This document shows positions 8,189 through 13,716 of a stretch of 64,000 nucleotides of DNA, one piece after another. This stretch comes from Microtetraspora niveoalba (GTDB taxonomy: Bacteria > Actinomycetota > Actinomycetes > Streptosporangiales > Streptosporangiaceae): positions 124,001 through 188,000 of the forward strand of contig NZ_BBYM01000018.1 of the NCBI RefSeq assembly GCF_001570405.1. Direction: 5' to 3'. Position 1 is the stretch's first letter. The number at the start of each line of letters is the position of its first letter. The notes under the pieces were generated by a model that saw only the letters and a list, made by a program, of their open reading frames with translations, ran no database searches and had not been told where the DNA came from. A program made the position numbers and the translations under genes.

Positions 8189-8202
8189 TAGAACAAGTTC
8201 TT
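8189..8202. promoter_or_regulatory. KstR-like operator (near-consensus palindrome)
   Basis: TAGAACAAGTTCTT fits the published KstR motif TnnAACnnGTTnnA at every fixed position except the last base. It lies about 22 bases before the first gene of the cluster and 60-odd bases from the divergent CapA-like gene, in the place expected for a repressor site. No kstR gene is in the window, so the regulator is inferred. Confidence 0.6.
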
Positions 8203-8224
8203 GCCAAGGGCGGAGCGGTCGAGG

Positions 8225-8734
8225 ATGCTGGCGCACATGGATCCGATCACGCTGGAAGAGATCCGCCAGGTGAAGTACCGATACCTGCGCTGCCTGGACC
8301 TCAAGCTCTGGGACGACTTCGCCGACGTCTTCACCGAGGACGCCGTGGCGGAGTACGACACACCCCTGCTCCGCGACCCGCTGCGCCTGGAGGGGCGGGA
8401 CGCCATCGTCGGCTACATGCGCGCCAACCTGGGCCCCGGCATGATCACGGCGCACCTCGCCGGCCACCCCGAGATCGAGGTGGACGGCGACCGCGCCACG
8501 GGGAGCTGGTGCCTCCAGGACACCGTCGTCGCCACCGAGTACCGCCTGCTGATCTACGGCTCCGCCTACTACACCGACGTTTACCGGCGCTGCCCGGACG
8601 GCCGGTGGCGGGTCAGCCGCACCGGCCACGAGCGGACGTACGAGTTCTCCGTCTCCTTCGACGACCTGCCGAGCCTGCGGTTCGGCGCGAACAGGTGGGC
8701 GCCGCCAGCCGCCGGGCCATTGACCATCTCTTAG
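8225..8734 (+). CDS. SnoaL-like / NTF2-fold protein
   Basis: This 169-aa protein has the NTF2-like SnoaL fold used by small polyketide cyclases, ketosteroid-isomerase-like enzymes and dehydratases. Visible family features are ITLEEIRQVKYRYLRCLDLK at the start, then WDDFADVFTEDAVAEYDTP and the C-terminal DGRWRVSRTGHERT. It is the first gene of a six-gene plus-strand cluster preceded by a KstR-like site. The start could be 8225 (GGAG at 9 bases) or the ATG at 8237 (MDPITLEE), the usual family beginning. Its stop codon overlaps the second KstR-like site. Exact reaction unknown; in a sterol-type pathway it could be an isomerase or hydratase. Confidence 0.85.
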   Translation: MLAHMDPITLEEIRQVKYRYLRCLDLKLWDDFADVFTEDAVAEYDTPLLRDPLRLEGRDAIVGYMRANLGPGMITAHLAGHPEIEVDGDRATGSWCLQDTVVATEYRLLIYGSAYYTDVYRRCPDGRWRVSRTGHERTYEFSVSFDDLPSLRFGANRWAPPAAGPLTIS

Positions 8735-8745
8735 AACGAGTTCTA
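8732..8745. promoter_or_regulatory. KstR-like operator (full consensus match)
   Basis: TAGAACGAGTTCTA is a near-perfect palindrome that matches the KstR consensus TnnAACnnGTTnnA at all fixed positions. It overlaps the stop of the SnoaL-like gene and lies about 60 bases upstream of the DUF1214 gene, implying a second promoter for the downstream genes. Confidence 0.7.
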
Positions 8746-8757
8746 CTCTCATCCTCA

Positions 8758-8771
8758 ACCAATCGCTTGGT
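8758..8771. promoter_or_regulatory. Second palindrome, one mismatch from KstR2 consensus
   Basis: ACCAATCGCTTGGT has arms ACCAA/TTGGT. Compared with the KstR2 motif AnCAAGnnCTTGnT it differs at one fixed position. It lies 12 bases after the KstR-like palindrome and 32 bases before the DUF1214 start, so it may be an additional operator; chance similarity is possible. Confidence 0.4.
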
Positions 8772-8803
8772 ACGAATCCCGTACCGCGGTCCGAGGGGGT
8801 TCG

Positions 8804-9982
8804 GTGGCCACGCAGTCATTCGCCCAGGCGATCGCCGAGGCCGAGCAGATCATCCGTTCGGCGCCCCACGCGCGCACCGAACAGGACCTGGCCGAGGGCC
8901 TCGACTACCTCGCCGGGAGCATCAAGGCCTCGCTGCACCTGGCGTGGGCCTACGAGCGCGACTTCCCGTTCTTCATCGCCTCCACCGGGCCGCACGCCAA
9001 GCTCGGCCTCGACAACCCGGACACCCTCTACTTCCACGCGTACATCCGGGACGACGCGGAGTACGTCGTCACCGGCCGCCGCGGCACCACCGCCGACCTC
9101 AGCTTCCAGGTGCTCAACGGCGACTACTCGCCCGCCCGGTCGCCCGACAGCCTCGCGGCCTTCGACGACCGCGCCATCGAGATCGCCCCGGACGGGACGT
9201 ACGAGCTGCGGTTCGGCCCGGCGGGGCAGGGGGCCGGGCCCAACCGCTTCACCCTCGGGCCCGGCTCGGCGATGCTCGTCGTACGCGAGGTCTTCGGCGA
9301 CTGGGAGAACGAGCGGCCCGGCGAGATCCGCGTCCACCGCGCCGACACGCTCGGCTCGGCTCCCCCGCCCCCGTCCGCGGAGAAGGCGGCCAGGCGCTAC
9401 GACATCGCCGGGCGGATCCTGCTCTCGCGGCTGCGCACGTTCCTCGCCTTCCCCGAGTGGCACTACCTCTCGCTGCCGGTCAACACGATGACGGAGCCGC
9501 GCCCCACCCCCGGCGGCCTGGCCACGCAGTACTCGTCGGTCGGCCACTACGACCTCGACGACGACCAGGTCATGGTGATCACCGTGCCCGCCGCCGCCCG
9601 CGCGGACGCGCCGTACCAGGGGTTCCAGCTCGGCACCATGTGGTACGTCTCGCTCGACTACATCAACCACCAGACGAGCCTCACCTCCGACCAGGCGCGG
9701 GTCGACCCCGACGGCATGATCCGCTACGTGGTCAGCGAGCGCGACCCCGGCCTGGCCAACTGGATCGAGCGCACCGGCCACCGGCGCGGCTACCTGCAGA
9801 TCCGCTGGCAACGGCTCGCCCGCGAGCTCAAACCGGAGGACGGCCCCGAGGTGGAGGTCATGCCGTTCGACGAGCTGCCGCGGCGGCTGCCCCACCACGA
9901 CCGGCAGCGGGTGAGCCCCCGCGAGTGGGCGGACCGCATCGCCGCGCGGCAGGTCGCCGTCGCCAAGCGGATGCTCGGCTGA
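8804..9982 (+). CDS. DUF1214 domain protein
   Basis: This 392-aa protein is of the DUF1214/DUF1254-related type: SIKASLHLAWAYERDFPFF near residue 45, YFHAYIRDDAEYVVTGRRG, LDYINHQTSLTSDQ and the C-terminal IERTGHRRGYLQIRWQR are conserved-looking blocks. No catalytic role is established for the family. The GTG start has GAGGGGG upstream. Its stop shares one base with the SDR start (TGATG), so the two are coupled. As I recall, M. tuberculosis carries a similar hypothetical gene (Rv3531c) next to an SDR and a sulfotransferase-like gene inside the KstR regulon, which is the same order as here. Confidence 0.8.
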   Translation: MATQSFAQAIAEAEQIIRSAPHARTEQDLAEGLDYLAGSIKASLHLAWAYERDFPFFIASTGPHAKLGLDNPDTLYFHAYIRDDAEYVVTGRRGTTADLSFQVLNGDYSPARSPDSLAAFDDRAIEIAPDGTYELRFGPAGQGAGPNRFTLGPGSAMLVVREVFGDWENERPGEIRVHRADTLGSAPPPPSAEKAARRYDIAGRILLSRLRTFLAFPEWHYLSLPVNTMTEPRPTPGGLATQYSSVGHYDLDDDQVMVITVPAAARADAPYQGFQLGTMWYVSLDYINHQTSLTSDQARVDPDGMIRYVVSERDPGLANWIERTGHRRGYLQIRWQRLARELKPEDGPEVEVMPFDELPRRLPHHDRQRVSPREWADRIAARQVAVAKRMLG

Positions 9983-10785
9983 TGCCGCGCGAGGAGGCGG
10001 GCCACCCGCTGCCGCTGGAGGGCAAGGCCGTCGTCGTCTCCGGCGTCGGGCCGGGCCTGGGCCGCGCGCTGGCCCTGCGGTGCGCGGGGGCCGGGGCGGA
10101 CGTGGTGCTGGCGGCGCGCACCGGGTCGCGGCTGTCCGAGGTGGCCGCGGAGGTCGCCGCGCTCGGCCGCCGCGCCCTCCCGGTGCCGACGGACATCACC
10201 GACGAGGCGTCCTGCGGGCGGCTGGCCGACGCCGCGATGGAGGCGTACGGCCGGGTGGACGGCCTGGTCAACAACGCCTTCGCGATCCCGCCCCTGGCCG
10301 ACCTCGCGACAGTGGACCTGGACGCGGTGCGCGCGGGCTTCGAGACGAACGTGCTCGCCGCGCTGCGGCTGACCCGGATCCTCACGCCCGCGCTCGCCGA
10401 GGGCGGCGGCTCCGTCGTGATGGTCAACTCGGCGGTGCTGCGGCACTCGCGGCGCACGTTCGGCGCGTACAAGATGGCGAAGACCGCCCTGCTCTCCCTC
10501 GCGCAGAGCCTCGCGACCGAGCTGGGGCCGCAGGGCGTGCGGGTCAACTCCATCGCGCCCGGATACATCTGGGCGGACAACCTGAAGTGGTACTTCGAGT
10601 TTCTCGCCCGCGAGCGCGGCGTCACCGCGCGGCAGGTGTACGACGAGACCGCCGCCACGACCGACCTGCTCCGCCTGCCGGAACCCGACGAGGTGGCCGA
10701 CGCGGCGGTGTTCCTGCTGTCCCCCCTCGCCCGGGCCGTCACCGGGCAGTGCCTCGACGTCAACTGCGGCGAGTGGCACCACTGA
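9982..10785 (+). CDS. Short-chain dehydrogenase/reductase
   Basis: This 267-aa classical SDR oxidises or reduces a hydroxyl/keto group with NAD(P). The Rossmann motif SGVGPGLGR is at 20-28, the NNAF structural motif at 97-100 (NNAG variant), the catalytic Ser at about 150 and YKMAK (Y163, K167) follows. The C-terminal region ends with TGQCLDVNCGEW, typical of the fold. It starts within the DUF1214 stop and is followed 16 bases later by the sulfotransferase-like gene. Closest remembered parallel is the SDR Rv3530c of the KstR regulon, a match by context, not by alignment. Confidence 0.9.
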   Translation: MPREEAGHPLPLEGKAVVVSGVGPGLGRALALRCAGAGADVVLAARTGSRLSEVAAEVAALGRRALPVPTDITDEASCGRLADAAMEAYGRVDGLVNNAFAIPPLADLATVDLDAVRAGFETNVLAALRLTRILTPALAEGGGSVVMVNSAVLRHSRRTFGAYKMAKTALLSLAQSLATELGPQGVRVNSIAPGYIWADNLKWYFEFLARERGVTARQVYDETAATTDLLRLPEPDEVADAAVFLLSPLARAVTGQCLDVNCGEWHH

Positions 10786-10801
10786 CCCCGGAGGGCTCCC
10801 G

Positions 10802-11938
10802 ATGACGACGAGACGCGACGGCGTCGGCACGGTCGAGGACCTGCACGCCTCGGCCCGCAAGATCACCGGCCTGGACGACTTCGGCGAGGACGCCTACCTC
10901 GACGGCCTCGCAGTGTTGCTCGACTCCTACACCGAGGAGGCGGCGCTCACCCCGGCGGGCGCCAGGGCGCAGCGGGCGCTCCTGCGCGGCGCGCTGGTCG
11001 CCCGGCTGCTGTCGGAGGAGGCGTGGCGGCGGCACCCGGAGCACGCGGACGTGCCCGTCGAACGGCCGATCTTCGTCACCGGCCTGCCCAGGACCGGGAC
11101 CACGGCGCTGCACCGGCTGCTCACCGCCGACCCCGCGCACCAGGGCCTCGAACTGTGGCTGGCCGAGGCGCCCCGGCCGCGCCCGGCGCGCGAGACGTGG
11201 GCGGACGACCCCGTCTTCCGGTCCATCCAGGCCGGCTACGAGCGGCACCACGTCGCGAACCCCGAGTTCATGGGCGTCCACTACATGTCGGCCGACACGG
11301 TCGAGGAGTGCTGGCAACTGCTGCGCCAGTCGATGCGGTCGGTCTCGTTCGAGTGCCTCGCCCACGTCCCGGCGTACTCGGCCTGGCTGGACGCGCAGGA
11401 CTGGACGCCGGCCTACCGGCGGCACCGGCGCAACCTCCAGCTCATCGGGCTGCACGACACCGGCCGGCGCTGGGTGCTGAAGAACCCCAGCCACCTGTTC
11501 GCCCTCGACGCGCTCCTCGCGGTGTATCCGGACGCGCTCGTCATCCAGACCCACCGCTCCCCGCGTACGGCGATGGCGTCCATGTGCAGCCTCGCCGCGC
11601 ACGCGAGCGCGGGCTGGTCGGAGGCGTTCACCGGGCCGGTGATCGGGCGGGACCAGCTCGCCCTGTGGAGCCGCGGCCTCGAACGTTTCCGCGCCGAACG
11701 CGCGCGGCACGACCCTGCGCGGTTCTTCGACGTCCACTACGACGACTTCGTGCGCGACCCCCTCGGCACGGTCGACGCGATCTACACCCACTTCGGACTG
11801 CCGCTCGCGGACGGGGCGCGGGCGGCGATGGGGCGGCTGCACGACGAGAGCCGCTCGGGCCCGCGCCGACCGGCGCACCGGTACACGCTGTCGGACTTCG
11901 GGCTGACCGGCGAGGAGGTCGACGCGCGGTTCCGGTGA
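10802..11938 (+). CDS. Sulfotransferase-family protein
   Basis: This 378-aa protein has the PAPS-dependent sulfotransferase P-loop GLPRTGTT (residues 94-101, 5'-phosphosulfate binding) and the 3'-phosphate-binding stretch VIQTHRSPRTAMASM further on. An RRWVLKNPSHLFALDALL segment lies between them. The ATG has GGAGG with good spacing. Members next to DUF1214 and SDR genes in mycobacteria are annotated as sulfotransferases but their substrate is unknown; in this setting it might act on a sterol- or lipid-derived alcohol. No PAPS synthesis genes are in the window. Confidence 0.85.
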   Translation: MTTRRDGVGTVEDLHASARKITGLDDFGEDAYLDGLAVLLDSYTEEAALTPAGARAQRALLRGALVARLLSEEAWRRHPEHADVPVERPIFVTGLPRTGTTALHRLLTADPAHQGLELWLAEAPRPRPARETWADDPVFRSIQAGYERHHVANPEFMGVHYMSADTVEECWQLLRQSMRSVSFECLAHVPAYSAWLDAQDWTPAYRRHRRNLQLIGLHDTGRRWVLKNPSHLFALDALLAVYPDALVIQTHRSPRTAMASMCSLAAHASAGWSEAFTGPVIGRDQLALWSRGLERFRAERARHDPARFFDVHYDDFVRDPLGTVDAIYTHFGLPLADGARAAMGRLHDESRSGPRRPAHRYTLSDFGLTGEEVDARFR

Positions 11939-12068
11939 CCGGGACGGCGGCGCGCGCGGGTACGGCCCGGCCGCCTAGCCTCCGCGTGGAAGAAGCTCTC
12001 CGGGCCCGCGCCGCCCCACCGCGGCGGAGGCCGGGCTCCGGGAGCGCCCGCCGCGCACGGAGGTGACC

Positions 12069-12593
12069 GTGACACGTTCGGAGTGGTCGGACCGCCGGGA
12101 GATCCACGAGGTCGTCCTGCGCTACTGCCGGGGCGTCGACCGCCTCGACTTCGACCTCGTCCGCTCGGCGTATCATCCGGACGCGATCGACCACCACACC
12201 GGCTTCGAGGGGTCCGTGGACGACTACCTCGCCTGGGTCGAGCCCAAGCTCCGGGCCCGGCGCGGCGGCACCATGCACATCCTGGGAAACCACCTCGTCG
12301 AGCTGCACGGCGACGAGGCGGTCGCGGAGACGTACGGCACCTCCGTGCACTGGGGCGAGCCCGCCGACGACGTGCGCGCGAACTTCACCAGCGGGGTGCG
12401 CTTCGTCGACCACATGACGTACCGGGACGGCCGCTGGGCCATCTCGGAGCGATGGGCGGTCCGGGAGTGGACCCGCTCGGAGGTCGGCCGGTTCGTGCCC
12501 AAGGAGGGCGACGGCCCGTCGGGGCGGCGGGACGAGCACGACCCCCTCATCCTGCTCCAGCGGCGCGTCTCGTCCGGGAAGGCGGGCTCGTGA
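12069..12593 (+). CDS. SnoaL-like / NTF2-fold protein
   Basis: This 174-aa SnoaL-4-type protein has the core REIHEVVLRYCRGVDRLDFD, then SAYHPDAIDHHTGFEG and a C-terminal DGRWAISERWAVREW. Such proteins serve as small dehydratases, isomerases or cyclases, often in sterol or aromatic catabolism. I set the start at the GTG at 12069 because GGAGG ends five bases before it; an in-frame GTG at 12063 overlaps that site. The stop overlaps the GTG of the LLM oxidoreductase gene. The 130 bases before it hold no gene, so it may have its own promoter. Confidence 0.85.
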   Translation: MTRSEWSDRREIHEVVLRYCRGVDRLDFDLVRSAYHPDAIDHHTGFEGSVDDYLAWVEPKLRARRGGTMHILGNHLVELHGDEAVAETYGTSVHWGEPADDVRANFTSGVRFVDHMTYRDGRWAISERWAVREWTRSEVGRFVPKEGDGPSGRRDEHDPLILLQRRVSSGKAGS

Positions 12594-13459
12594 AGGTCGG
12601 CATCAGCTCTCCCGTCGTCGCCCTCGCCGGAGACCGCCCCGAGTGGGAGCGGCACGCCGGGGTCGCCGAGCTGGTGCGGGTCGCCGAGGCGGCCGACCGG
12701 CTCGGGTTCGACTTCATGACCTGTGGCGAGCACGTGGCCGTGCCGCGCGGCATCGCCCGCGGCGAGCGCTTCTACGACCCGCTCGCCACGTTCTCGTTCC
12801 TCGCGGCGCGCACCGAGCGGCTGCGCTTCCTGCCGTACGTGCTGGTCCTGCCCTTCCACCACCCGCTCGAACTGGCCAAGCGGTACGGCACCCTCGACCA
12901 TCTCAGCGGGGGCCGTCTGGTCCTCGGGCTCGGCGTGGGGAACCTGCGCGAGGAGTTCGACCTGCTGGGCAAGCCCTTCGACGACCGGGGCCCGCGCTCC
13001 GACGACGCCCTGCGCGCGCTGCGCGCCGCCCTGTCCACCCGTGTCGCGTCGTACGACGGGCCGTACTACTCGTTCACGGACATGGTGATCGAGCCGCACG
13101 CCGCGCAGGCCCGGGTGCCGTTGTGGATCGGCGGCCACAGCGCCCGCGCGCTGCGCCGCGCCGTCACGCTGGGCGACGGCTGGGCCCCGGCGCCGCAGGC
13201 GTTCCGGGGACCGTCGCCGCGCCGGATGCGGGAGATGCTCGACTCGGTCGAGGCCCCGCCGGGGTTCGACGTCCTCTTCACGCCCGGGACGCGGCTCGAC
13301 CCCATCGGCCGGCCGGACGAGGTCGGCGAGCTGATCCGGACCGCCGAGGAGGCGGGGGGAACCCGGATCAACCTGACGGTCCGGCACGAGTCACTCGACC
13401 ACTACCTGGACCAGCTCGAGGCGTTCGCCTCGCTCGCGTTCCACGACCGGGCGGCCTGA
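12590..13459 (+). CDS. LLM-class (F420-dependent type) oxidoreductase
   Basis: This 289-aa luciferase-like TIM-barrel protein belongs to the bacterial LLM group that uses F420 or FMN. Family segments are LGFDFMTCGEHVAVP near residue 38, then FLAARTERLRFLPYVLVLPF, the signature LDHLSGGRLVLGLGVGN (102-118) and VPLWIGGHSARALRRA. The GTG start overlaps the SnoaL stop (GTGA), so the two are coupled. It ends the cluster; its last codons run into a 14-bp tandem repeat. Substrate unknown. Mycobacterial KstR regulons also contain an LLM-type gene (Rv3520c, from memory). Confidence 0.88.
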   Translation: MKVGISSPVVALAGDRPEWERHAGVAELVRVAEAADRLGFDFMTCGEHVAVPRGIARGERFYDPLATFSFLAARTERLRFLPYVLVLPFHHPLELAKRYGTLDHLSGGRLVLGLGVGNLREEFDLLGKPFDDRGPRSDDALRALRAALSTRVASYDGPYYSFTDMVIEPHAAQARVPLWIGGHSARALRRAVTLGDGWAPAPQAFRGPSPRRMREMLDSVEAPPGFDVLFTPGTRLDPIGRPDEVGELIRTAEEAGGTRINLTVRHESLDHYLDQLEAFASLAFHDRAA

Positions 13460-13530
13460 GGCGGGCGGTCTGAAGCGGGCGGTCTGAAGCGGGCGGTCTG
13501 AAGCGGGCGGTCTGAAGCGGGCGGTCTGAG
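13447..13530. repeat. 14-bp tandem repeat, about six units
   Basis: Five units of GCGGGCGGTCTGAA start at 13461 and are followed by diverged ends. A sixth, degenerate unit (13447-13460) forms the last codons and stop of the LLM oxidoreductase gene, so the array seems to have grown from the gene's own 3' end. Each unit carries a TGA. The rest of the gap to 13716 shows no gene. Confidence 0.9.
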
Positions 13531-13716
13531 CGGACTGCCGGGGCCTGAGGCGGACCGCCGCGCTCGGGGTGCCCGGCCCGCGACATGCCGGCATAGAGCG
13601 GGACCAGGACCGGCACCGGCCCCGGTGGGCGAAGCCCCGGCTGGACCGGCTTCGCCCACGGCGGCGCCTCCGGGGCGGGCTCGGGGCGTCGGGCCCCGCA
13701 CTCTATGATCCCGATC

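Follow-up and report, generated by a model that had tools for sequence, protein, structure and literature searches.

KstR-type operators and a conserved SnoaL-DUF-SDR-sulfotransferase block in Microtetraspora niveoalba

The window discussed here is a stretch of 64,000 nucleotides from the actinomycete Microtetraspora niveoalba (assembly GCF_001570405.1, contig NZ_BBYM01000018.1, positions 124,001 to 188,000). Near its beginning lies a block in which two palindromic sites, O1 and O2, accompany the gene for a SnoaL-like protein, Sno1, and a trio of genes for a DUF1214/1254-like protein, an SDR oxidoreductase and a sulfotransferase. The block is probably a steroid-inducible operon piece of a KstR-type regulon, with its operators held by a KstR-like TetR protein, most likely the one encoded at C3:101445 on another contig of the same genome. 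This reading rests on the conserved operators, the orthology of the trio, and the presence elsewhere in the genome of a KstR-like TetR, a 3-oxosteroid dehydrogenase, a CYP125-like P450 and three KshA homologues. The operon is of a known kind, with a variant composition in a new setting, and is not a new kind of system. KstR outside the Mycobacteriales is already known; papers on Nocardioides and Saccharopolyspora use the name. Among the matches listed for KstR, sulfotransferase, cholesterol and SnoaL, none deals with this operon by title and abstract, and no KstR study stood among the matches listed for KstR combined with Streptosporangiales names. The features of the block are as follows.

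8189..8202, plus strand: operator O1, TAGAACAAGTTCTT, in the divergent intergenic region upstream of the first SnoaL gene (Sno1)
8225..8734, plus strand: Sno1, a BaiE-like SnoaL_4 protein (PF13577, 108 bits); the conserved start is probably the ATG at 8237
8720..8725, plus strand: putative -35-like hexamer TTGACC, read by eye
8732..8745, plus strand: operator O2, TAGAACGAGTTCTA, which takes in the stop codon of Sno1 and reaches two bases into the -10-like hexamer
8744..8749, plus strand: putative -10-like hexamer TACTCT, read by eye, 18 bases from the -35-like hexamer and partly kept in relatives
8804..9982, plus strand: DUF1214/1254-like protein, the Rv3531c counterpart by homology and synteny
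9982..10785, plus strand: SDR oxidoreductase (PRK07890), the Rv3530c counterpart (NF005909, 391 bits, cut-off 258)
10802..11938, plus strand: sulfotransferase, the Stf1/Rv3529c counterpart (PF13469, 216 bits; E 6e-162 to PDB 2zq5, which we take to be Stf1 of M. tuberculosis)

A preliminary description of this DNA had placed two KstR-type palindromes at 8189 and 8732, followed by six plus-strand genes, and both the palindromes and the six open reading frames (ORFs) are there. The claimed fit to the KstR motif is exact for O2, which matches the palindrome TnnAACnnGTTnnA at the promoter, and one base short for O1, whose final T departs from the TNNAACNNGTTNNA consensus. Within the window TNNAACNNGTTNNA occurs once, at 8732, where 0.07 occurrences are expected (7 of 100 shuffles held at least one), and TAGAACNNGTTCTA with up to two mismatches finds only O1 and O2 (0.14 expected; two reached in none of 100 shuffles). 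O2 is positioned between the -35-like and -10-like hexamers and overlaps the latter, an arrangement like that of the KstR site in kstR's own promoter as given in passages of Kendall 2007 (PMC1995591). A sigma-70 scan returned no promoter here at the scanner's threshold.

Both sites are strongly conserved, and on that account they are very likely working operators. In a family survey that took in our genome and 32 same-family relatives, the O1 form TAGAACNNGTT(C/A)TT stands upstream of the SnoaL gene in all 28 of the 32 relatives in which the trio has that gene nearby. The DUF gene is preceded, at a distance of 24 to 173 bases, by a T(A/G)GAACNNGTTCTA site in 30 of the 33 genomes (our own and 29 of 32 relatives); the three relatives in which no O2-type site was matched before that gene are L138, which meets a contig edge, L139 and L140. 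A site of the O2 type also precedes the DUF gene in 10 of 15 loci of a second family (f6). A further set of 80 named loci, which overlaps the 200-genome survey described below, was drawn from Microtetraspora, Actinomadura, Thermomonospora, Nonomuraea, Amycolatopsis, Nocardia and others; here the site was scored within 260 bases upstream of the DUF gene and was present in 67. The 200 bases 5' of the DUF gene were also aligned across 30 genomes chosen independently of the motif. O2 ranked first by conservation among 186 upstream windows, its half-sites carrying 1.98 bits per base against 0.75 in the other upstream columns, its central bases 1.0 and 0.5 bits, and the six following bases (the -10) 0.94. 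At one locus, L110, O1 is shifted about 1.35 kb from Sno1, and an OrfB/IS605-type transposase gene (PF01385) separates the two (L110:9234-10424; L222, M. malaysiensis).

The trio itself corresponds, on synteny and homology, to the KstR-regulated genes Rv3531c-Rv3530c-Rv3529c, whose order the preliminary description had compared with it. The ortholog survey covered 200 genomes of the order with the DUF protein (70-100% identity) as marker, and an orthologue is present in 33, with five more genomes giving distant matches only. The nearest named relatives by this protein are Microtetraspora fusca (91%), M. malaysiensis (90%) and M. glauca (89%); identity is 54-58% to proteins of the g48 genomes, which we take for Mycobacterium. 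A KstR block outside the Mycobacteriales had been thought worthy of remark in itself, a view that these 33 genomes, and the many Pseudonocardiales that carry the trio as well, do not support. Among the 80 named loci, whose flanks covered up to 6 kb, the SDR follows the DUF gene in 77 (>55% identity), the sulfotransferase is present in 78 (>50%) and Sno1 in 53 (>50%). What is conserved as a unit is the trio together with the SnoaL gene and the separate operator of the latter.

The family names first given to the genes agree with Pfam for the SnoaL-like, SDR, sulfotransferase-like, second SnoaL-like and LLM proteins (SnoaL_4, SDR, Sulfotransfer_3, SnoaL_4 and Bac_luciferase, respectively). The DUF1214 label drew no Pfam match even at E 10, and the relative in locus L146 reached only 14 bits (cut-off 25); it is the predicted fold that speaks for it. 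The AlphaFold model (pLDDT 81) matches 6ans in Foldseek (E 1.5e-29); a more distant match is VPA0735 (2p3y; E 2.4e-9, TM 0.44), which is presumably of the DUF1254/1214 kind.

Comparison of gene order, one of the checks suggested at the outset, gave a close parallel. Locus L146 runs from an aldolase, which we read as HsaF-like, through a PPE protein (PF00823), the DUF, SDR and sulfotransferase genes and other ORFs to KshA (PF19298; E 2.5e-259 to PDB 2zyl) and the motif TAGAACACGTTACA, which also lies downstream of the trio in 10 of the 15 f6 loci. The L146 order agrees with the M. tuberculosis interval Rv3534c-Rv3525c and with the Rv3525c/Rv3526 motif published in Kendall 2007 (PMC1995591). The M. 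tuberculosis trio shares with ours gene order, homology and a TAGAAC-type operator before the first gene, and the table of that paper lists motif ACTAGAACGTGTTCCTGTTT for Rv3531c as positive in an electrophoretic mobility shift assay. Parts of another source give Rv3531c, Rv3530c and Rv3529c as a hypothetical protein, a possible oxidoreductase and a conserved hypothetical protein (PMC6429209), and Rv3529c has been named Stf1 (PMC8882603). Unlike the M. tuberculosis block, ours has a BaiE-like SnoaL gene and a second operator ahead of the trio, the repressor is divergent, and the three KshA homologues of the genome lie on other contigs (C2, C8 and C26) than the block, which is on C18.

The genome as a whole (8.47 Mb, 98 contigs) bears further signs of a regulon. 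The motif scan proposed in the preliminary description found TNNAACNNGTTNNA 44 times, the reversed control 15 times. TAGAACNNGTTCTA is exact at three places, the window, C21:77034 and C27:66054, with 11 more at one mismatch; with two mismatches allowed this motif was not above its control (110 against 298), so that only close matches are informative. Operators precede a 3-oxosteroid 1-dehydrogenase gene (895 bits, cut-off 788), a CYP125-like P450 gene (E 1e-110 or better to PDB CYP125 entries) and a gene for an LLM of the Rv3520c type. KshA homologues (E <=1e-60) occur in 30 of the 33 trio genomes and in 12 of the 167 others (Fisher p ~1e-22, which ignores relatedness). Exact operators number 4.36 per genome with the trio, or 3.36 minus the trio's own, against 0.76 without it; the reversed control gives 0.21 and 0.11, respectively.

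A search of the genome with the KstR profile NF033703, for which the NCBI equivalog cut-off is 280 bits, returned two relatives of the repressor, on C3 (133.4 bits) and C26 (122.6 bits), before scores dropped to 51, all of them under the cut-off. The C3 gene is divergent from an acyl-CoA dehydrogenase gene (fadE) and adjoins the steroid 3-ketoacyl-CoA thiolase gene fadA5 (652 bits, cut-off 515). Among its 30 closest homologues, our own included, every one has (A/G)TAACGTGTTC just upstream of the ATG, and the gap between tetR and the acyl-CoA dehydrogenase gene holds a further one-mismatch site, TAGACCCTGTTCTA, which reads TAGAACAGATTCTA in Thermomonospora curvata. Another locus, L299, encodes a KstR that clears the cut-off (319 bits); it is preceded by TAGAACACGTTATA and ends 2.9 kb ahead of Sno1 and 3.4 kb ahead of the DUF gene. 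In the acyl-CoA dehydrogenase region beside the KstR-like gene (L018:4375-6617), the gene caller placed two ORFs that overlap in different frames; a frameshift, a second gene and a caller error are all possible.

The repressor that binds, its ligand and every enzymatic step are what we infer. A dimer of the KstR-like TetR, most likely that of C3:101445, would sit on O2 over the promoter of the DUF-SDR-sulfotransferase genes, and likewise on O1 before Sno1, blocking RNA polymerase for as long as no steroid intermediate has released it. The SDR might then oxidise or reduce a ring hydroxyl or keto group and the sulfotransferase-fold protein modify a steroid intermediate, while the BaiE-like Sno1 would probably eliminate a ring hydroxyl, for which 7alpha is the first guess.

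Several observations weigh against this account. The score of the C3 TetR lies below the equivalog cut-off, for which reason it is classed as KstR-like and not as KstR; the site before its own gene is not a perfect match, and could in part reflect a promoter and a start codon. TetRs of the C3 type (E <=1e-20) occur in 186 of the 200 genomes against 33 for the trio, so that the protein must have other roles. Only 6 of 13 sites in our genome with at most one mismatch (the 14th, C8:5790, was left out) stand beside clearly steroid-related genes, and these six include the two in the window; the rest lie within coding regions or have unrelated genes as neighbours. With up to one mismatch allowed, T. 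curvata has 9 sites against 13 for the reversed control, and it is only its exact sites that stand out, 4 against 0. The centres of O1 and O2 are GA and AA, where the table in Kendall 2007 (PMC1995591) has mostly GT/AC. In L299, the 0.3 kb covered after the DUF gene contain no SDR and an ORF that looks like a different enzyme. The co-occurrence statistics, moreover, ignore phylogeny.

The strongest competitor for the operators, itself unlikely, is the second KstR-like TetR, which lies at C26:111226-111870 (L076:13223-13870) in a separate steroid cluster, beside thiolase-, SDR- and KshA genes and one that we read as KstD-like. Apart from its profile score, this candidate gains from its presence (E <=1e-30) in 29 of the 33 trio genomes against 17 of the 167 others (Fisher p ~7e-19, again without regard to relatedness), and a KstR homologue is mentioned in passages on the RHA1 cholate cluster (PMC8399759). 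The region upstream of the C26 gene, however, has another dyad, CCACT-N-AGTGG, which is exact in 6 of 30 cases and also appears in related forms, CCGCT-G-AGCGG among them, whereas a perfect TAGAAC-NN-GTTCTA was found within 200 bases of none of 30 C26-type tetR genes. The two KstR-family repressors thus seem to have different operators, and the C26 protein is held unlikely as regulator of the block.

Slightly less probable still is that a general lipid or fatty-acid TetR uses the palindromes as its operators and that the operon has no specific steroid role. C3-type TetRs and some exact sites do occur in genomes that lack the trio, 65 of the 167 having at least one site; the co-occurrence with KshA, the position of the trio amid sterol genes in L146 and the published binding of KstR at Rv3531c speak against it. 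Control by an IclR-type regulator is very improbable: its gene, which many relatives carry in divergent orientation to the DUF gene (PF09339 in L119), shares the O2 gap in 37 of the 80 named loci (e.g. L119, L221, L223, L230, L257 and L263), 36 of which have the site, but O2 is also kept in 31 of the 43 loci where that gene is missing from the gap, and the window species has no IclR gene before DUF.

Sno1 opens another line of thought. Among solved structures, BaiE entries come closest to it (4l8p, E 2.4e-18; 35% identity over 128 aligned positions), followed by weak matches to Rv3472 (5e-5) and a steroid isomerase (0.005). We take the active-site residues of BaiE to be Y30, D35, H83, D106 and R146. 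All five are present in Sno1, and among its orthologues Y and D are kept in 53 of 54 and the other three residues in all 54. The second SnoaL protein of the neighbourhood, Sno2, which served as control and gave no PDB match at E 0.1 and no match in the BaiE search, keeps four of the five, a point that weighs against the steroid reading of Sno1 and weakens these residues as proof of BaiE function.

With the 7alpha-dehydratases BaiE and Hsh2, as described in parts of three sources (PMC10382948, PMC12175502 and PMC8399759), Sno1 shares membership of the SnoaL_4/NTF2 proteins; unlike BaiE it sits in an aerobic actinomycete behind a KstR-type operator. In one of these papers (PMC8399759), Hsh2 is given as absent in RHA1, and Dietzia Chol2 is said to use the Delta4,6 variant. 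It is possible that Sno1 is a 7alpha-dehydratase; an alternative role is that of a 12-hydroxy dehydratase like the SnoaL protein SteC (PMC13101464).

The case of T. curvata bears on the same question. This organism has the Sno1-DUF-SDR-sulfotransferase block with both operators, and an exact operator before an LLM of the Rv3520c type (462 bits). Two more exact operators lie at C1:4382206, beside a MarR-like gene and an MlaE-type permease gene (PF02405) that we read as yrbE4A-like, and at C1:4530391, between MBL-fold and phosphotransferase-like genes. The neighbours of both sites are likely to be further regulon members. According to passages of Bergstrand 2016 (PMC4810484), T. curvata grows on cholate and not on cholesterol; those on its cholate cluster do not name the block. 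Since T. curvata has the block, it is unlikely that the trio is needed only for the cholesterol side chain, and this, together with the nearness of Sno1 to BaiE, suggests a broader steroid, perhaps bile-acid, role. A bolder and distinctly tentative proposal is that Sno1 is an actinobacterial 7alpha-hydroxysteroid dehydratase under a KstR-type repressor and that the trio works on the steroid nucleus, in bile acids and sterols alike, and not on the cholesterol side chain; this would explain the trio in T. curvata.

Two further genes follow the trio, and were at first counted as part of one six-gene cluster.

12063..12593, plus strand: Sno2, a second SnoaL_4 protein, part of a separate adjacent module that read-through from O2 may reach
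12590..13459, plus strand: TIGR03619 F420-dependent LLM oxidoreductase, the partner of Sno2 (224 bits, cut-off 167)

The single-cluster view has been abandoned: neither Sno2 (>45% identity) nor the LLM (>50%) was found in the flanks of the trio, up to 6 kb, in any of the 80 named loci, and in 8 of 9 relatives examined the Sno2 orthologue adjoins the LLM orthologue at sites away from the trio. Nor is the LLM the Rv3520c counterpart it was taken for, scoring 44 bits to TIGR03559 against a cut-off of 335; the true relative, with its own operator, is on contig C21 (461 bits). Orthologues of Sno2 (76-86% identity, our own apart) occur in 10 of the 200 genomes including ours, and 9 of these are trio genomes (p 3e-7); weaker matches (33-45%) appear in 13 further genomes. 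Judged by this distribution, Sno2-LLM is a steroid-associated module separate from the trio. No TnnAACnnGTTnnA was seen in the stretches around the Sno2-LLM orthologues of the 9 relatives. In the window species Sno2 starts 124 bases after the trio, and the two are possibly co-transcribed. Directly 3' of the LLM gene lies a period-14 tandem repeat (CGGGCGGTCTGAAG, 6.2 copies; window 13448-13533).

For the biology of these actinomycetes, the occurrence of the trio and the same operator in T. curvata, for which growth on cholate and none on cholesterol is reported, narrows the possible functions of the trio and makes a laboratory strain available, and the BaiE-like partner supplies a first concrete reaction candidate.

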